Assembly: GCA_028288025.1 (NCBI GenBank)
Contig: JAQBOM010000021.1
Location: forward strand, 62,001-126,000
DNA: 64,000 nucleotides
From: Mucilaginibacter sp.
Lineage (GTDB): Bacteria > Bacteroidota > Bacteroidia > Sphingobacteriales > Sphingobacteriaceae
Direction: 5' to 3'
In this document: piece after piece, positions 32,947-43,295 of the stretch
How the letters are laid out: each line of letters starts with the position of its first letter
How positions within the stretch are numbered: position 1 is the stretch's first letter
The notes under the pieces: model-generated
The model's input: the letters and a program-made list of their open reading frames with translations, nothing else
Databases searched by the model: none
What the model was told of the DNA's origin: nothing
Translations under genes and position numbers: made by a program

Positions 32947-33224
32947 TAATATATATTGTAGAAATTTTCTATATCTTATCCTTTAATTAAAACACGCTCC
33001 CAATATAGCAACAATAATTAACCGAATAAACCAGAAGGGCTTAACGAATATATAATAATTTAAATTACTTATATAAAAATATTATAAATCATTGACAAAA
33101 TTGCCTTATTGGTCTAAAAAATTCACCTTTTCGATAAAGCTTTTACTGCTAATTTACACAATTCATTTATATATTGCAGGCAAATTAAAGGCTTTTTTTG
33201 GTGAATATCTAAGCGAACGTGACT

Positions 33225-34022
33225 ATGGCTAACAAGGAACTGGAAATACGAACCGTTAACGTTACGCGGTATGTTACGCCATTGCGGGAAGGAGGTTCGC
33301 TGCCCGCAATTGCCGAGGCCGACGACGGTTTTTTATATGTACTTAAATTTCGGGGCGCCGGTCAGGGTGCAAGGGCGCTTATTGCCGAGCTGATAGGCGG
33401 CGAAATTGCCCGGGCAGTCGGATTAAAAGTGCCGGAGATTGTTTTCGCCAGCCTGGATGAAGCTTTCGGCCGCACCGAGCCGGATGAAGAGATACAGGAC
33501 CTGTTAAAGGCCAGTACTGGGCTTAACCTCGCCCTTCATTATCTTTCAGGCGCTATAACTTTCGACCCGGCTATTACCAAACCCGACCCAATACTCGCGT
33601 CAAAAATCGTTTGGCTCGATTGCCTGCTCACCAATGTGGACCGTACGCCCCGCAATACCAATATGCTTATCTGGCACAAAGAATTATGGCTTATTGACCA
33701 TGGGGCCGCATTATATTTCCATCATTCGTGGCACAACTGGATGGAGCAGGCCAAACGGCCCTTTGTACAGGTTAAAGACCATGTGTTGCTGCCGCATGCT
33801 ACTGAACTGGAGTTGGTTGATGCACAATTGCGTCTCGTTTTGACCGCAGAGCGCATCCGTTCAATTGTCGGCCTGGTGCCGGACGAATGGCTGGCCGGCG
33901 AAAAAACATTCAAAACAATTGAAGAACACCGGCAGGCTTACATCGACTTTTTACTATCACGAATTGAAAATTCAGCTATTTTTATAAAAGAAGCACAACA
34001 TGCAGCAGAAACACTTGTTTGA
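33225..34022 (+). CDS. HipA-like kinase-domain protein
   Basis: Catalytic-loop-like LDCLLTNVDRTPRNTNMLI and metal-binding-like WLIDHGAALYF. Confidence 0.8.
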   Translation: MANKELEIRTVNVTRYVTPLREGGSLPAIAEADDGFLYVLKFRGAGQGARALIAELIGGEIARAVGLKVPEIVFASLDEAFGRTEPDEEIQDLLKASTGLNLALHYLSGAITFDPAITKPDPILASKIVWLDCLLTNVDRTPRNTNMLIWHKELWLIDHGAALYFHHSWHNWMEQAKRPFVQVKDHVLLPHATELELVDAQLRLVLTAERIRSIVGLVPDEWLAGEKTFKTIEEHRQAYIDFLLSRIENSAIFIKEAQHAAETLV

Positions 34023-34383
34023 ATATGCCGTTATCCGCGTTGTGCCGAAAGTGGAACGCGAAGAATTCCTGAATATAGGTGTGATCCTGTATTGCGCAAA
34101 ACAGCAGTTTTTGCAAACCAGGTATTTGCTGGATCAGCCACGTCTTGCCGCATTTTCAGCTGAGTTAGATATGGTTGAGTTGAAAGAGCATCTCTGCTCA
34201 TTCGAACGGATATGTAAAGGTGATACAGCCGCCGGACCGATAGGCAAGCTGGATATCGCTTCACGATTTCGCTGGCTCACAGCCGCCCGCAGCACGGTTT
34301 TGCAAACATCAAAAGTACACCCCGGCATGACCGAAAGTGCATTGGAAACGCTTGATCGTTTGTTTGCACAGCTTGTTGTTTAA
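34000..34383 (+). CDS. DUF3037 domain protein
   Basis: EYAVIRVVPKVEREEFLNIGVILYC; overlaps the HipA-like gene by 23 bp. Confidence 0.85.
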   Translation: MQQKHLFEYAVIRVVPKVEREEFLNIGVILYCAKQQFLQTRYLLDQPRLAAFSAELDMVELKEHLCSFERICKGDTAAGPIGKLDIASRFRWLTAARSTVLQTSKVHPGMTESALETLDRLFAQLVV

Positions 34384-35087: not shown

Positions 35088-35813
35088 TTATTCCAAATCA
35101 TATTCCTTATGTAACTCGGCTAAAACATCTTCAGCGGTTTTCATTTGCCGGGCATATTCGGTCATCGAACGCAACCGCTCGATCTTCACAACAACAATAT
35201 AATTGATCGTCTGTCTCGTACTCTGTTTGCTTCGGTCGGTGTAATACAATTCGTGCGAAATATGGTGCAAAAAATAGGTATCAAAAACAACCTCGCTATT
35301 GAAATTTTTTATAGCGAAGGGCATCACCTAGTCAACTATAAATTTCAGGTCGATGTTTTCGCGTTTGACGGTTTTTTTCGCCTGCACATCGTAGCTGTTC
35401 ATCAGGGTCACCAGCTTTTGATCAAAATATCTTAACGATCCCGATGATTTGATTTGCTCGTAAGTGCCTGCAGAAGGCTCAAAAGGCGCCACGTTGCTGG
35501 CGACCGATACCTGCTTGTACAGCACAGTATCCTTTTGTTTTTCGGCTGAGAAATGAAGCATATTCAGTGCGCTGTCTAAAGTTGCCAGCTTATGCTTACT
35601 AAAGCGCACAGCCGTGTGCAGTGCCGCTGTATCCTTTTTAATATCGTCAAAATACGAACGGGCAAACTCTGCCGCACGTTTATGCTCCGAAATATTCTCC
35701 CGTATATTTTCGGCAACGAAGCCCATCATTACGGCCAGGAATATCATTAAGCCTTCAAGAACATATTCTTTCAGGCCTTTTTTCTCTAATTCGGGGTGGT
35801 GATGTACTTCCAT
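35088..35813 (-). pseudogene. MEVHHHP array member A, interrupted by in-frame TAG at 35328-35330
   Basis: ORFs 35328..35873 and 35088..35327 are contiguous in the same frame (...KFIVD*VMPFAIKNF...); the downstream half ends in the family-like C-terminus AELHKEYDLE. Confidence 0.8.
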
Positions 35814-35908
35814 TTTTGATTTCGGATGTCGGATTTTCAATTTTTCGCGGTTGTTTGTTTTTATTGTGCTCAAGAGGGCTTCGCCGTTTCGGATTTATTT
35901 TTTTGACT
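35814..35908. repeat. Shared leader repeat (copy 1)
   Basis: Nearly identical to 36707-36802, containing GATTTCG/GATGTCG heptamers and GAGGGCTTCGCCGTTT. Confidence 0.85.
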
Positions 35909-36706
35909 TTACTGACTTTCGGACTTTTCCGACTTTCCGGACTCCTCAAAATGGTATTTCTCGTTGATTAATTTGAGCAGCCCCGCGGCTTCATTTTTCG
36001 CTTTGTTTAACCGGGTCATATATCCCCAGTTGCGGGCATTGATATTGACTACGCTGTTGGCCAGTTGGTTAAGTTTAACCGGATCTTTTTCAAAAAGGGG
36101 CATATCATACATAAATGAACTTCGCATAACGTCTTTATCTGGGTTCGTTTGCATATTCTTATTAACCTGCCTGTTAAAATCGGTATAATCACACATCGCA
36201 TCTTCAAGCGCATATAGCGTGTTATAGGCTTTGTTAACGTCATTCAAATCCTCTTTATAATTGCCTTCAATAAATGTTTCGTACTCCATTATTTTTTGAG
36301 CGACACCCTGATTTTCGATCAGCCTTAAGTTGCCCGAACTTTTTAATTGCTGGATGATCGTTAATGCTGGCCAGTAGGTTACGCCGTATTCGTTAACCGG
36401 CGTATTCCACTTACCCAGCAACGTAAATTTATACGCAGCCGGATAACGGGCATTATTATACAGCGAATCTAAAAGTGGCCGTAAATAAAATACTTTATGA
36501 AGCGAACTGGTATACATCGCTGTATCACTTTTCAACTCGGCAGATAAGGCGCGCAGGTAATCCTTTTCTTTCGACCCGTCCGACAGATGGTCACGCGCAC
36601 TTTCGGCAAAATAGCCCATCGTAACAGCTAAAAATATCATTAAACCTTCCAGCAAATATTCTTTCAGGCCTTTTCTTTCTACTTCTGGGTGGTGGTGTAC
36701 TTCCAT
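35909..36706 (-). CDS. MEVHHHP array member B
   Basis: MEVHHHPEVERKGLKEYLLEGLMIFLAVTMGYFAES; central IIQQLKSSGNLRLI. Confidence 0.85.
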   Translation of the reverse strand: MEVHHHPEVERKGLKEYLLEGLMIFLAVTMGYFAESARDHLSDGSKEKDYLRALSAELKSDTAMYTSSLHKVFYLRPLLDSLYNNARYPAAYKFTLLGKWNTPVNEYGVTYWPALTIIQQLKSSGNLRLIENQGVAQKIMEYETFIEGNYKEDLNDVNKAYNTLYALEDAMCDYTDFNRQVNKNMQTNPDKDVMRSSFMYDMPLFEKDPVKLNQLANSVVNINARNWGYMTRLNKAKNEAAGLLKLINEKYHFEESGKSEKSESQ

Positions 36707-36802
36707 TTTTGATTTTGGATGTCGGATTTTCAATTTTTCGCGGTTGTTTGTTTTTTATTGTGCTCAAGAGGGCTTCGCCGTTTCGGATTTATTTTTTTGA
36801 CA
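36707..36802. repeat. Shared leader repeat (copy 2)
   Basis: Nearly identical to 35814-35908. Confidence 0.85.
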
Positions 36803-37576
36803 TTATTGACTTTCGGACTTTCCGGACTTTTCCGACTCTTTCAAATGATATTCGTTATTAATTAACCCTATCAGTTTCTTCGCCTGTACCAGTAATTCAC
36901 CTGCTCTTCTTCGTTGTGTTTCATCTGATTTTTTCAGGTACTGTACCGAACCAATGTATTCATTCAACAAAGCAGGGTTAGTTGAAAACAGTTGCGGGTT
37001 GGTGGTGGGTCTGATTATTTTGTCGCCCGCAACCATGCTGTTAAATATCCTGGTATCAAAAATTTTCCTGGCATACTGCCTGTAATCCTCCCTCAACATT
37101 TGCTCCTCATTCATTTCAAGTATTTGAACCCGCATTTTTTGGTCGTATGCCATAATGTTGTTCGATATCTTCCAATTGCTGATCAGCCGCAAGCTTCCCG
37201 AGCTTTTCAGTTGTTGAATGGTGCGGTCGTTTGGAAAAATATTTTGCGGCGGCGAGATAACCCGGGCAAAATAATAAACGCTGTTCCCCTTATCTTTTAA
37301 GGAGGGCGAGCCAAGCAAAAAAACCAGCGAATCGATCATTTCGACCCGGTGCTTCCTAAAATTGATATTGCTTGCAAGCGTAACGGTATCCGATTTCAGA
37401 TCTTCGATCATTGATACCATAAATCCCCTTTCCCGGTGCTGGTCGGTAATATGCTCGCGCAGGCTTTCAGCAAAAAAACCCATCATAACGGCCAGAAAAA
37501 TCATTAGTCCTTCAAATAAATATTCCTTCCAGGGCTTGGGCTTGTGTTCTAATTGCGGGTGGTGGTGTACTTCCAT
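36803..37576 (-). CDS. MEVHHHP array member C
   Basis: MEVHHHPQLEHKPKPWKEYLFEGLMIFLAVMMGFFAESLRE; TIQQLKSSGSLRLI. Confidence 0.85.
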   Translation of the reverse strand: MEVHHHPQLEHKPKPWKEYLFEGLMIFLAVMMGFFAESLREHITDQHRERGFMVSMIEDLKSDTVTLASNINFRKHRVEMIDSLVFLLGSPSLKDKGNSVYYFARVISPPQNIFPNDRTIQQLKSSGSLRLISNWKISNNIMAYDQKMRVQILEMNEEQMLREDYRQYARKIFDTRIFNSMVAGDKIIRPTTNPQLFSTNPALLNEYIGSVQYLKKSDETQRRRAGELLVQAKKLIGLINNEYHLKESEKSGKSESQ

Positions 37577-37660
37577 TGTGATTTCAGTTGGCAGTTTTGA
37601 GTTAGCAGTTTGCCGTAATTTTATTTCGTTATGCAAATTTTCGGATTTATCCGCTCTTTT

Positions 37661-37702
37661 GACTTCTGACTTCGGACTTCCGACTCCAGACTTCCGAATT
37701 CG
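37661..37702. repeat. Heptamer array GACTTCT/GACTTCG/GACTTCC/GACTCCA/GACTTCC/GAATTCG
   Basis: Six consecutive 7-bp units. Confidence 0.85.
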
Positions 37703-37706
37703 TTTC

Positions 37707-39089
37707 TCACTCATTGATCCGCTCTAGTTTTTCAATAGTTCGCTTAGCCGCAGCCAGGCGTACAGCTTTATTTTTTATTACTAATTTTTTCGTCGTCCAT
37801 TTTTCAAGCCGGTGATGCAGCGGTACCAGCAATGCTGCAATACACACCAACGCGAGCAGCATCAATACCGGTGAATGATGAGTAACACGCTCTAAAAAGG
37901 GGTGTACCAAAAGATTGATAAACTCAAATACAATAAGCAAGGCGAGTACGCCCAAAAACTCTATCATTTTTGTGTTGGTGATCATGCTGCGGCTTGCCAT
38001 TAAAAATAATATAATAATGGTGATAATGCCAAGGGCAATTAACGCGTACTGTATATTTTGTTTTCGCTGTTCTGCAGCTTCTGCGGTTTTTGCCTGTTCG
38101 TCTATTTCCCTTAATTGTTGTCCGAAGGTTAGGTTTTGAAACTCTGCAATGCGTTTTTGACTGCTTACCGAATCCTTATATTCTATCTGCATTACTGCGT
38201 AGTAATAAGCGCTGTCTTTGTTCATTTCATGTGCGTATACTTTTCTCAATATTTCGGCTACTGTGCTCATCCCTTCGGTTATGCCGGCTTTTTTGGCGAC
38301 CGCCAGGTTCTCCAATGCGATAGCCTTTGCCTGCGCATAATTGCCCGATTTAATACAAAAATCGCAATACAGGCTGCCGTGGCGTATTTGCCCGGATGCC
38401 AGGTTTTGTTTTTTACAATAGGCTACTACCCTTTTGTAATACACTTCTGCCAGGTCGGCATCGCCTTTCAGTTCGTACGCTTTACCGCTTTGCGCCAGGG
38501 AAATAGAAACCAGGGTCGGATCATTATTTTTATTAGCTGAGCTAGCCGCTTTTTGCAAATAGATGAGCGCCGAATCGGGTTTGTTTAAATTATTAAATAC
38601 CAGGCCATATAATATGTTTTTGAAAAACGCGCTCGACGGAAAATTGCCGAAAGACTCAAATTTTCTAAGATAACTAAGGGCAACCTTGTCATTCCCGGTA
38701 ATGGCATACACGTAAGCCAGATTGCCGTAAAATGTTGCTTTGCTTTCATCTGTTTTGGCATAGTCCAACCCTTTGAAGTAAGCGCTAAGGGCAAAATTAT
38801 AATCTGTTCGGGTTACCAGCCTGTTACCGATAGCCCTGTAAACCAGTACCATCAACGAATCATTCTTTAAGCCCCCGGCTATGGCATACATTTTTTTTTG
38901 CAATATGGCCGAACTGTCATATAGCCCGGTGGTATAGCAATACCTGTCTAACCCGCGATAGCCCCGAAATTTTTCGGCAGGCGTTTTGGCGTTTCGTATT
39001 GTTTGCACGGCCTGGTCCACGGGCGGGTATTGCGCTAATAGCTGCCTGCTTATAAGCAACAAAAAGATCAGGGTAAAAAAATACTTCAT
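37707..39089 (-). CDS. TPR protein with C-terminal membrane segments and coiled tail, no kinase domain
   Basis: Signal peptide, TPR-like region, hydrophobic segments then KTIEKLERINE; no histidine-kinase motifs seen. Confidence 0.75.
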   Translation of the reverse strand: MKYFFTLIFLLLISRQLLAQYPPVDQAVQTIRNAKTPAEKFRGYRGLDRYCYTTGLYDSSAILQKKMYAIAGGLKNDSLMVLVYRAIGNRLVTRTDYNFALSAYFKGLDYAKTDESKATFYGNLAYVYAITGNDKVALSYLRKFESFGNFPSSAFFKNILYGLVFNNLNKPDSALIYLQKAASSANKNNDPTLVSISLAQSGKAYELKGDADLAEVYYKRVVAYCKKQNLASGQIRHGSLYCDFCIKSGNYAQAKAIALENLAVAKKAGITEGMSTVAEILRKVYAHEMNKDSAYYYAVMQIEYKDSVSSQKRIAEFQNLTFGQQLREIDEQAKTAEAAEQRKQNIQYALIALGIITIIILFLMASRSMITNTKMIEFLGVLALLIVFEFINLLVHPFLERVTHHSPVLMLLALVCIAALLVPLHHRLEKWTTKKLVIKNKAVRLAAAKRTIEKLERINE

Positions 39090-39131
39090 ACAAAATCCGT
39101 GATTATTAACATGCGGCTGTTACCTGCCATC

Positions 39132-39482
39132 TTATTTTTTTATTTCAACACTTATAATATGCAAGTTATTGCTGCCTGCATTTTTTAATGCATGCGGCCC
39201 TAATGGTTCGGACCACAATGCGGCATGGGGCACAATGGTTTTACCAAGGCTCCTCGAGTCCAGCAGCACATTACCCTGGGCATCATACCTGATAAAATCA
39301 GACCAACTGATAACAATATGCGACGCGGCAAAACGGTGCGTATGCACGGCTGTCATTTCGCCGGGCGGAATACAAGTATCCAGCACACGCACAAATTCAT
39401 TTTCAAGCAGCAATGAATGATGCTGTGGCGCGGCAATTAATGCGTCCAGTTCGTCGGGCCATTTTTCAGGTTGTATATCCAT
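39132..39482 (-). CDS. Cupin-like small protein
   Basis: CIPPGEMTAVHTHRFAASHIVIS metal-site-like motif. Confidence 0.7.
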   Translation of the reverse strand: MDIQPEKWPDELDALIAAPQHHSLLLENEFVRVLDTCIPPGEMTAVHTHRFAASHIVISWSDFIRYDAQGNVLLDSRSLGKTIVPHAALWSEPLGPHALKNAGSNNLHIISVEIKK

Positions 39483-39552
39483 TAACTCTAAATAATATTA
39501 TCCGATAACTATTTTTTTGATTTCATATGCTTTGTATTTCTGTTTCACCCTT

Positions 39553-40344
39553 TTATTCACCGTTAAAATGATATTCCATTCTCAATGCCTCCAGCAACTC
39601 ATGGTTAGCTTTTATAAAAGGCGCGTAATATATTTGCACGGTCGACCGTACGATCAACAAATAATAACCGGCGAGCGCGTCTGCGTCTCCCCTTTTAAAA
39701 TCCTTAAGGTTCCTGACAGATGGCGGCCTTGTTGAATGAAAATTGGTTTGAGATAAAGCTTCCGGGATAGAAAGCTTTCCGTTTTGCGTAAACTCGTCCT
39801 GCCATTTAAAATCAAAATGTTTCAGCGAAAAGGGCCGTATGGAGCTTTCGATAAAGGTATATTCCTGCCCGTTCCGGTTCCTGACATTTGCATTGACGAT
39901 ATTAATACGGCTGATAGCATTCTGCAGCCGGATGCTCTTAAAATAACGCAGGGTGCCCGAATTTCTTAACTGGGTTAATATCCCTTCATTCGGTTCAAAC
40001 AGAATGGAGCTGGTTAAAATAAACGACCATTCAAAACTCTGATTAAACTTATCCGATACATGAGTAAGGCTGCTATCCGAAACATAATTTCTGAAATATT
40101 GCATCTGGATGGCTTTTTCCCGGCGCAGCTTTATTTTACTTTGCATATTAACCGAATCTGCGTAAACCTCCTGGTATAAACTTTTTGCCAGTTCGGTAGC
40201 CTTTTGGTTTTCCGATATACTTTCGCGCATGGTTTCCGCGAAAAAGCCGAGTGTTACAGCCAGGAATATCATGATGAATTCAAGGAAATATTCCTTCCAG
40301 GGTTTTCTTTTGTGATGCAGGTCGGGGTGATGATGTACTTCCAT
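39553..40344 (-). CDS. MEVHHHP array member D
   Basis: MEVHHHPDLHHKRKPWKEYFLEFIMIFLAVTLGFFAETMRE; ILTQLRNSGTLRYF. Confidence 0.85.
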   Translation of the reverse strand: MEVHHHPDLHHKRKPWKEYFLEFIMIFLAVTLGFFAETMRESISENQKATELAKSLYQEVYADSVNMQSKIKLRREKAIQMQYFRNYVSDSSLTHVSDKFNQSFEWSFILTSSILFEPNEGILTQLRNSGTLRYFKSIRLQNAISRINIVNANVRNRNGQEYTFIESSIRPFSLKHFDFKWQDEFTQNGKLSIPEALSQTNFHSTRPPSVRNLKDFKRGDADALAGYYLLIVRSTVQIYYAPFIKANHELLEALRMEYHFNGE

Positions 40345-40420
40345 GTTGTGATTTCGGATGTCGGATTTCGATTTTTGCGGTTGTTTGTTTTAATTCTGCC
40401 CGGGGTCCGGGTTTGCAGCT

Positions 40421-41176
40421 CTATTCTCGTACATTTACTAAATTGTACTTATTTTCAAAGTACCTGATAAGCCCGGTTTCTCGTTTTTTAAACCGTTGCA
40501 CCGCTCCCAGCTGGTAGTTAATAACCCTCCTGTAAAGAGTCAGGTCATTGAAATATTCATTAATTAACGACTTATCATTTGAATAAAACAGGGGTATGGC
40601 AGTGGCAACGGTTTTAGCCGCGCCAGGATGCAGCATCGGTTCAGCCTTAAAGTTAATGAGCTTAACGTAAACATCCCTTACGATGTCCTGCCGTTGCTGG
40701 AACATCGTAGACTCAAAATTCTGGAAAGCCCGCACCGCATGATCGAATGCAACAATGCTGTCCTTATCAACTTCATTTAATAACCGAAAACCCCCTGCAT
40801 TTTTTAACTGTTGCATGGTACCATCTGTAAAATTTACAACTTTGTTCGATGCCGACTTTTCCATAATTGGCAGAAGGCATGATACCGACTTGTTATTCTT
40901 TTCGATGGTATCAAAACATGGAGAAAGGTTGTTCAATGCGATCATTTTGTTTTGGTCAAATGCTGTCAATGCAGAAAAGTTCGCTGTATCGTGCTTCAGG
41001 TCCTGCACAAATGACCTGATATATTCTCTGCCTTTTGCCCCGTCAGAAATTCCCTCCCTGATCGTCTCGGCAAAAAAGCCCATGGTAACGGCTAAAAATA
41101 TCATCAGGCCTTCAAGCACGTATTCCTTCCATGCTTTTGGCTTATGGTCTAGTTGGGGGTGGTGGTGTACTTCCAT
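40421..41176 (-). CDS. MEVHHHP array member E
   Basis: MEVHHHPQLDHKPKAWKEYVLEGLMIFLAVTMGFFAETIRE; TMQQLKNAGGFRLL. Confidence 0.85.
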   Translation of the reverse strand: MEVHHHPQLDHKPKAWKEYVLEGLMIFLAVTMGFFAETIREGISDGAKGREYIRSFVQDLKHDTANFSALTAFDQNKMIALNNLSPCFDTIEKNNKSVSCLLPIMEKSASNKVVNFTDGTMQQLKNAGGFRLLNEVDKDSIVAFDHAVRAFQNFESTMFQQRQDIVRDVYVKLINFKAEPMLHPGAAKTVATAIPLFYSNDKSLINEYFNDLTLYRRVINYQLGAVQRFKKRETGLIRYFENKYNLVNVRE

Positions 41177-41182
41177 TGTTGT

Positions 41183-41238
41183 GATTTCGGATGTCGGATG
41201 TTCGATGTCGGATTTATTTTGATTTTCGATTTTTCGCG
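41183..41238. repeat. Heptamer array GATTTCG/GATGTCG/GATGTTC/GATGTCG/GATTTAT/TTTGATT/TTCGATT/TTTCGCG
   Basis: Eight units; the first about 52 nt match 42108-42159. Confidence 0.85.
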
Positions 41239-41353
41239 CTTGTTTATTTTCAATTGTGCTCAAGAGGGCTTCGCCGTTCCGGATTTATTTTTTTCTGACC
41301 TCAGGCTTCTTACTCACTTTCGGACTTTCCGGACTTTTCCGACTTTCCTGACT

Positions 41354-42100
41354 CTATTTATCCAGTTCACGGTTAACTAAATTCAGTAAGTTCCGGTTAT
41401 GTTTATCCAAAATGTAAAGCTTGTTTATGGACGAGGCGGCGCTGATCACGTAATCTTCATAATACCCAACCAGGTACCTTCGTTCTCTATCGCTCATCGC
41501 CTGGTATGGTTTCATCACAACTTTGTATGTTAATATGTTTATGTAATTGCCTGTATCTTTTGGAACAGCGTTGTGCACATCCTCAAGTTTTTGCACTTCC
41601 AGTTCACCATTAAGCAACATTAAGTTTATCTGGGTATTATAATTTTTCAATCCATCCATCATGGATTTATAGTAGGCCATGCTATCCCTCAAAGGGATGT
41701 TTTTTATATAGCGCAGTGTACCCGAACTGATCATCTGGTCATATGCGGAGGTGTTTACCGGTATATAAATAATTCTTTTGGCAGGTATTAACAGCCGCTC
41801 TACCACGTGGATATCCTTATTCTCTCTTCCCTCATCAAAAATGCGCGTCAGGCTATCACATAAATCAATCTTTTTATGAAATATCCTGCTATAGCTTTCA
41901 AAGTCCTTATGCTGCTGCACCAGTTCATTTCTGTAGGTTTCTAAAAAATCTTTTGCGTTTGATTTTTCCGAAATATTCTCGCGCAGGCTTTCGGCAAAAA
42001 AACCCATTGTCACGGCCAAAAATATCATCACAAATTCAAGGATGTATTCTTTCCAAGGTTTTCTCTCATGATGCAGATCGGGATGGTGGTGTACTTCCAT
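41354..42100 (-). CDS. MEVHHHP array member F
   Basis: MEVHHHPDLHHERKPWKEYILEFVMIFLAVTMGFFAESLRE; YDQMISSGTLRYI. Confidence 0.85.
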   Translation of the reverse strand: MEVHHHPDLHHERKPWKEYILEFVMIFLAVTMGFFAESLRENISEKSNAKDFLETYRNELVQQHKDFESYSRIFHKKIDLCDSLTRIFDEGRENKDIHVVERLLIPAKRIIYIPVNTSAYDQMISSGTLRYIKNIPLRDSMAYYKSMMDGLKNYNTQINLMLLNGELEVQKLEDVHNAVPKDTGNYINILTYKVVMKPYQAMSDRERRYLVGYYEDYVISAASSINKLYILDKHNRNLLNLVNRELDK

Positions 42101-42107
42101 GGTTTGT

Positions 42108-42163
42108 GATTTCGGATGTCGGATGTTCGATGTCGGATTTATTTTGATTTTCGATTTTTAGCG
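42108..42163. repeat. Heptamer array, duplicate of 41183-41238
   Basis: Identical over about 52 nt. Confidence 0.85.
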
Positions 42164-42244
42164 GTTGTTTATTTTTAATTGTGTTAAATAAGGCATCGCC
42201 GTTCCGGGTTTATTTTTTTGACTTCCGGATTTTCCGGGCTTTTA

Positions 42245-42994
42245 CTATTCCAACCCATATTCCTTTCTAATCAATTTAATTAACTGTACAGCTTTTATCT
42301 CCAAACGTTTATAGTTGTCTTTATCCTGTCTGGTGGTTATTTTCTGGCGGCCCAAAAAGTTAAGGTAAGAATTCAGATCGGTCGTATTTATCCTGATGAT
42401 GCTGGAATTTGACAACGATGGATAGAATGATGTTCCGGTGGAATTTAGCCGGTAGCTTTTTATCAGGTCGTTGGCGTTCAGCAGTTTTTCGATCATGCTA
42501 TCCTGCGTTTGCTGGTTGACAAAATAACTGGCTTTATAATATTCTATCCTGTCCCAAAGCTGATCATAAACCGCCAACGAATCGCGTACATCGGCTGTTC
42601 GTATCAATCGTAAACCGCCAGCATTTTTTAGCTGGTTTATGGTACCTGTATGGCGGGTATAAGTGCGGTCCCAGGATCCCCGCTTTATATTCACATATAC
42701 ATTAAAGGGTATAGTTTTCGGCGCGGAATTTTTCTCAAAAAACATAAAAACAGAGTCTATCGCTTCGATCCGCTTTTGCTTTCTCGGAAAACCCTCGCTT
42801 AGCATAGCCGTATCCAGCACAAGATCACGCACCATCGATTCCATATATTGCTGCTCGCGGTCGTGATCGGCAACCCGTTCCCGTAAATTTTCGGCTACAA
42901 AGCCCATAAAAACAGCAAGGAATATCATCAGGCCTTCCAGTAAATACTCTTTCAGGCCTTTTTTCTCTACTTCGGGGTGATGGTGTACTTCCAT
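42245..42994 (-). CDS. MEVHHHP array member G
   Basis: MEVHHHPEVEKKGLKEYLLEGLMIFLAVFMGFVAENLRE; TINQLKNAGGLRLI. Confidence 0.85.
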   Translation of the reverse strand: MEVHHHPEVEKKGLKEYLLEGLMIFLAVFMGFVAENLRERVADHDREQQYMESMVRDLVLDTAMLSEGFPRKQKRIEAIDSVFMFFEKNSAPKTIPFNVYVNIKRGSWDRTYTRHTGTINQLKNAGGLRLIRTADVRDSLAVYDQLWDRIEYYKASYFVNQQTQDSMIEKLLNANDLIKSYRLNSTGTSFYPSLSNSSIIRINTTDLNSYLNFLGRQKITTRQDKDNYKRLEIKAVQLIKLIRKEYGLE

Positions 42995-43295
42995 GATTTC
43001 AGTTGGCAGTTTTGAGTTAGCAGTTTGCCGTGTTTTTAGTTCGTTATGCAATTTTTGGATTTATCCGCTCTTTCGGACTTCCCACCTCAAACTTCCTACT
43101 CACTTTCGGGCTTTTCCGACTTTCCAGACTTTCCGGACTTTCCTAGCTTTTCCGGACTTCCTCCGGTCATTAATTGTTAAAGGTTTAATCTTGAGCAATT
43201 TAAAAAAAAATATATTATCATTCGCACCCCATCGGCGAAGCTGCCCGATTTTTTTATTAATTTCGGAGTTGAAAGTCACCAGCTTATATATTTAG

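Follow-up and report, generated by a model that had tools for sequence, protein, structure and literature searches.

The window analysed here is a stretch of 64,000 nucleotides from Mucilaginibacter sp. (contig JAQBOM010000021.1, positions 62,001 to 126,000), and this study concerns a tandem array of seven genes within it whose products begin with MEVHHHP. A reading of the sequence alone had described these genes as a constant His-rich anchor followed by hypervariable outer domains, with one gene interrupted. We confirm the seven MEVHHHP genes, all on the minus strand between positions 35088 and 42994, and a degenerate 20-base start pattern occurs seven times in the 64-kb window against 0.05 expected. 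Start-pattern and profile searches of the window's genome found no further array members elsewhere in it. Our sequence comparisons indicate that the outer domains (ectodomains) have passed between genomes under anchors that stay in place.

The seven genes are listed below. L049 is the second species compared with the window, Mucilaginibacter sp. RYN_315; dN/dS is the ratio of non-synonymous to synonymous divergence, and pLDDT (predicted local distance difference test) and pTM (predicted template modelling score) are confidence measures of the AlphaFold models.

42245..42994, minus strand: gene G, 249 amino acids; anchor is the first 42 codons; nearest ectodomain relative in L030, another genome
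41354..42100, minus strand: gene F, 248 amino acids; 94% ectodomain identity to L049:9985, dN/dS 0.09
40421..41176, minus strand: gene E, 251 amino acids; 84% ectodomain identity to L049:8210, dN/dS 0.30
39553..40344, minus strand: gene D, 263 amino acids; pLDDT 89.1
36803..37576, minus strand: gene C, 257 amino acids; pLDDT 94.9, pTM 0.84
35909..36706, minus strand: gene B, 265 amino acids; 95% ectodomain identity to L049:4672, dN/dS 0.07
35088..35813, minus strand: gene A, interrupted by TAG at 35328-35330; counterpart L049:10878

Gene A is indeed interrupted. Its reading frame comprises codons 1-161, the single in-frame TAG and then 79 in-frame residues that end in the family's KEYDLE; the counterpart in L049 is intact, with 81% ectodomain identity and a dN/dS of 0.10.

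Anchor and outer domain of the array proteins

Between the paralogs of the window, identity is 72% in the first 42 residues (the MEVHHHP start and the membrane helix) and averages 17% in the remainder, which bears out the proposed combination of a constant anchor with a variable outer domain. The outer parts should not be taken for hypervariable sequence without structure, and all members have one alignable domain: a profile hidden Markov model built from the seven matches each of them along almost the whole protein, and the seven outer domains align end to end.

The search of a public genome collection yielded 247 candidate stretches coding for relatives; 80 of these were kept as 73 loci, mostly from Chitinophagaceae and Mucilaginibacter. 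Across 131 relatives, D63, Q122, G127, Y144, L235 and Y243 (numbering of gene C) are each kept in >80%, so that the central Q(L/I/M) motif is not the only other shared motif, as had been thought. Mean column entropy in these relatives is lowest at residues 1-42 (0.6-1.2 bits), intermediate in the central motif (1.9 bits) and highest in the remaining long segments (2.7-3.4 bits). Within MEVHHHP, H4 and H6 are conserved in 99-100% and H5 in 95%, with which the MEVHAHT variants agree.

By hydropathy, the proteins have only one membrane segment, which begins at residues 18-21. In the AlphaFold model of gene C, the membrane helix runs on outward (H16-88), and short helices with the QLKSSG motif stand between this helix and two further long helices (H135-172 and H201-243); gene D, among the most divergent members, shows the same helix pattern. 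The array proteins are probably inner-membrane proteins of N-in topology, in which a short cytoplasmic N-terminal tail and one membrane helix would carry a periplasmic bundle of long helices. A fold search with the models gave no PDB or viral-library match at E<=0.001 and returned only generic helix bundles, and a sequence search of solved structures found nothing convincing (best E 0.034).

Conservation and relationship to DUF6090

The comparison with L049 argues against a hypervariable family. The counterparts of genes A, B, E and F have ectodomain identities of 81-95% and dN/dS of 0.07-0.30, and because they are so conserved, rapid diversification in place is not supported by these sequences. 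For 163 of the 175 members of multi-copy genomes the nearest ectodomain lies in a different genome; the paralog types are therefore older than their host genomes, or move between them. We rejected gene conversion among the anchors of this array, since their synonymous sites are saturated between the window's paralogs (synonymous divergence, pS, 0.70).

A resemblance to DUF6090 had been suspected from the central motif. When the family alignment was compared by hhalign with 18 DUF6090 sequences from other genomes, 204 columns including this motif were matched with a probability of 98.4% (E 9e-15), against 0.2% for a reversed-alignment control. Single-copy relatives with EIAIIVFAVTLSL...YEGFKSSGK bridge the array family and DUF6090, with ~99% to both sides. 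Like DUF6090, the array proteins have one N-terminal membrane helix and a helical outer domain with a central SG motif (LKSSGxLxLI), and DUF6090 genes also stand in tandem arrays, of up to ~17 genes. The array family differs in having MEVHHHP and FLAVxxGFxAExxRE where DUF6090 has YAIGEIxLVVIGILIALQINNWNE.

Profile homology therefore upholds the resemblance, but no array member passes the cut-off of the Pfam model (PF19578): the best score, 18.1 bits against a gathering cut-off of 23.5 bits, is that of gene A only, and the model reaches E 0.01 with 3 of the 131 relatives. Searches of Pfam, NCBIfam and PADLOC gave no confident family for any array member. Since profile homology is present and the Pfam cut-off is missed, the array family is, on profile evidence, filed as a divergent branch of the DUF6090 superfamily and kept apart from the Pfam family itself. 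The ectodomains are thus alignable, but the family they resemble is hardly a characterised one: our literature search found no paper mentioning DUF6090 or PF19578, and wider searches also gave nothing on the array family.

Probable exchange of outer domains between genomes

Under plain inheritance, the anchor and the ectodomain of a counterpart pair are expected to have similar synonymous divergence. Of 18 cross-genome pairs, none of which share a gene, 17 have a higher pS in the anchor than in the ectodomain. Pooled pS in successive 42-codon segments from the start is 0.53, 0.25, 0.30, 0.25, 0.27 and 0.27. A Ginsengibacter isolate (L084) and a Parafilimonas (L057) have two ectodomains in common with pS of only 0.10 and 0.14, while the anchors of these two genes stand at 0.67 and 0.57 and the M19 dipeptidases, taken as the reference gene for L084 and L057, are saturated (0.71). 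Between the window and L049, pS is 0.51 in flanking genes, 0.47-0.67 in anchors and 0.23-0.35 in the ectodomains of B, E and F; gene E and L049:8210, for example, have 0.67 in the anchor and 0.23 in the ectodomain.

In the apparently exchanged pairs, DNA identity starts inside the anchor and stops 0 to ~150 bp past the stop codon, with the flanks near background, whereas a single-copy control pair (L065/L076) stays collinear across the gene and its two flanks. For the three most recent exchanges, 85-100% identity extends through the spacer that follows, and the next anchor still shows 87-90% over its first 60 nt before identity falls to baseline. At the DNA level, 51 of 180 members have their nearest anchor within their own genome, compared with 8 expected by label shuffling.

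The sharp synonymous step at the boundary, together with the non-collinear flank profiles and a cross-genus pS far under that of the reference gene, indicates from DNA comparison that outer domains pass between genomes as single-gene cassettes joined to resident anchors. Homologous recombination between the conserved anchors would be the simplest reading of the mechanism. We suggest that genomes would keep a resident anchor set, and that ectodomain cassettes would be gained, lost and exchanged one gene at a time through recombination within the conserved anchor; for the three latest cases, the other end may have been close to where the anchor of the next gene begins. On balance, we lean towards a cassette pool common to soil Bacteroidota genera, from which single-gene periplasmic domains would be re-joined to resident anchors, so that each strain would have a modular set of specificities, either sensory or protective.

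Within the genus, a relative is present in 42 of 101 genomes with 1 to 13 copies, so that related genomes are not confined to single copies. Counting the window, 45 of 74 loci have at least two copies and 21 at least five, the largest having 14. The window's own site, flanked by an alpha/beta hydrolase and DinB, holds seven copies in this genome, and six other species carry from 1 to at least 8 there. Orphan MEVHHHP anchors without an ectodomain stand directly after the last array gene at L031 3402, L057 7480, L077 3277, L084 11550 and L114 5834, as would be expected for gain and loss. At L095 4480, an anchor is fused to a small membrane segment. Plasmid and phage searches gave no match to the family. 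One distant relative (31%) is on a 6 kb IMG/VR contig labelled viral (L175), which may be a misassigned chromosomal fragment.

Genomic context and possible function

The array also includes a tetratricopeptide repeat (TPR) protein, a small cupin-like protein and repeated spacers.

37707..39089, minus strand: TPR protein, 460 amino acids; apparent signal peptide, TPRs, several hydrophobic segments, conserved tail, no kinase; TPR_12 36.5 bits
39132..39482, minus strand: small cupin-like protein, 116 amino acids; Cupin_2 12.4 bits, sub-threshold (cut-off 27.2 bits); a relative also in L035
35814..35908, minus strand: spacer upstream of A, dispersed-repeat copy, ~98% identical to the spacer upstream of B
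36707..36802, minus strand: spacer upstream of B, dispersed repeat
41221..41294, minus strand: dispersed repeat upstream of E, 92%
42146..42223, minus strand: dispersed repeat upstream of F, 86%
40346-40399: further copy of the dispersed repeat in the window
37577..37676, minus strand: second spacer type, upstream of C, common to G (42994-43073, 94%)

The first of these had been called a kinase-less TPR protein. It has no kinase domain, but it is not a broken kinase, since its architecture recurs beside other arrays: TPRs and several transmembrane (TM) segments with the conserved tail KLVEKNKxIRLAAAKRTIEKLE are found again in or beside arrays at L029, L044 (two), L066, L072, L030, L050 and L052, and a Mucilaginibacter TPR protein with the distinctive membrane and tail region lies in or beside family genes in G000, G014, G110, G111 (two) and G029. 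The gene described as a cupin does not earn that name from its score. The dispersed repeat has a core of ~58 bp (ATCCGAAACGGCGAAGCCCTCTTGAGCACCNTTAAAAANAAACAANNGCGAAAAATCCGAAAT), with tens of matches in most of the Mucilaginibacter genomes searched; an Rfam search of the whole window, this repeat included, gave no match. Near-identical spacers were rejected as proof of recent duplication, as they belong to this genome-wide repeat. The Bacteroidota promoter pattern is absent from the array and not clearly over-represented in the window. Elsewhere in the window (33219-34383), a HipA-like kinase (HipA_2) that matches the PADLOC candidate PDC-M66A overlaps a DUF3037 gene.

Neighbouring genes offer some clues to function. 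Histidine kinases of the GELTAGIAHEIQNPLNFVNNF class make up 10 of 154 genes (6.5%) within 1 kb of the family, all on the same strand, compared with ~1% farther out; M19 membrane dipeptidases make up 4.5% within 1 kb and 0 of 206 at 5-10 kb. Comparing near (<2.5 kb) with far genes gave p 0.018 for this kinase class, 0.007 for any kinase, 0.0007 for M19 and 0.04 for the TPR-4TM family, members of which adjoin arrays, while the serine-hydrolase/beta-lactamase signal was not significant (p 0.31); in all these statistics, the loci of related genomes do not count as independent. All 17 GELTAGIAHEIQNPLNFVNNF-class kinases of G195 and G226, two genomes of another family, are on DUF6090-array contigs, interleaved or within ~25 kb. 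Islands grouping DUF6090 genes with this kinase class are on G195 contig C2 and G226 contig C9 (L146, L148, L154, L155). In the Ginsengibacter isolate, L084:11679-12935 joins a family anchor in frame to a GELTAGIAHEIQNPLNFVNNF-class kinase that lacks the usual kinase N-terminus. M19 dipeptidases also stand within ~3 kb of the family at L039, L040, L047, L050, L061, L067, L082, L083, L086, L088, L089 and L098, where the surroundings also include other exported peptidases, acylases and amino-acid permeases.

We tentatively propose that the array proteins may serve as ligand- or stress-specific accessory sensors for TPR/histidine-kinase signalling, although the chance of this is well below even. 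The common anchor would dock on TPR proteins and on one class of histidine kinases, and the cassette would set specificity. For the explanation as a whole, a divergent DUF6090 branch with cassette exchange and, less surely, accessory sensing, we put our confidence at about 60%. Several observations weigh against it. There are only ~23 synonymous sites per anchor, the pairs were picked for similar ectodomains, and many of the genomes are metagenome assemblies. The anchor-kinase fusion in L084 could be a by-product of recombination between neighbours, and the five closest GELTAGIAHEIQNPLNFVNNF-class kinases in the window's genome are on contigs other than that of the array. The M19 association is statistically stronger than the kinase association.

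Known modular systems resemble the array in part. CdiA and Rhs toxins have a constant N-terminus and an exchanged C-terminus, with the breakpoint at the boundary of the two. The array genes likewise appear to combine a constant 5' part with an exchanged 3' module and a breakpoint at the boundary; however, they encode small membrane proteins, not toxins, have no immunity partner and stand in many intact tandem copies. In chemoreceptors, the four-helix-bundle sensor domain is a periplasmic helical bundle continuing from a membrane helix, as the ectodomain also appears to do in our models. Array proteins, in contrast, have one membrane helix only and no output domain in the same protein, and the fold search found no four-helix sensor of this type in the PDB at E<=0.001.

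Among functional readings, periplasmic immunity is the main rival to accessory sensing, though we regard it as unlikely. Each ectodomain would neutralise one periplasmic or inner-membrane toxin, and cassettes would be collected against the toxins of neighbours. Homogeneous polyimmunity loci, such as SUKH arrays, consist of tandem, distantly related paralogs uninterrupted by toxins and apparently collected by transfer (PMC3482391). The array fits this description in its tandem, distantly related paralogs, the lack of toxin genes between them and the apparent horizontal movement of single genes, and a repertoire under exchange would suit biotic conflict. It differs in its near-invariant common anchor and its kinase and dipeptidase neighbours, and no toxin partner was found: the 25 Pfam families met most often in 110 same-strand neighbours include none of toxins (singletons not listed), and PADLOC has no match to array members. 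Immunity would also leave the linkage to kinases, TPR proteins and dipeptidases unexplained. The M19 linkage might instead suggest accessory or scaffold proteins that hold or regulate dipeptidases, acylases and related exported enzymes in periplasmic peptide and amide hydrolysis. There are about two M19 copies per genome; penicillin amidases, amidohydrolases, S9 peptidases and amino-acid permeases are also among the neighbours, and amidohydrolases adjoin DUF6090 arrays as well. However, it is Chitinophagaceae-type genomes that show this linkage. It is absent around the window, which has no more than an alpha/beta hydrolase and DUF885 nearby, and its synteny is common to related genomes, so the loci are not independent. 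We consider this role improbable.

Two further readings dispense with exchange. The array could be an ordinary family of old paralogs with gain and loss but no anchor recombination, in which a common partner constrains the anchor and the synonymous step reflects either noise or selection on codons at the 5' end. The saturation of anchor synonymous sites between the window's paralogs would make recent gene conversion invisible there, in keeping with this view, but the step in nearly all pairs, the flank profiles and the low cross-genus pS speak against it and make it quite improbable. The rapidly diversifying surface antigen or receptor family of the sequence-only reading draws on the low ectodomain identity between paralogs. 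It is already contradicted by the low dN/dS and by the 94-95% conservation of F and B in the second species, and an inner-membrane anchor offers no visible route to the surface; it can hardly be correct.

Bacteroidota often have strongly amplified sets of DUF6090-like proteins, which are uncharacterised as far as our literature search shows. Exchange of ectodomains between genera under a fixed anchor would turn these hypothetical proteins into a testable repertoire of specificities, and the link to one class of histidine kinases and to TPR membrane proteins may provide a first functional handle on them.

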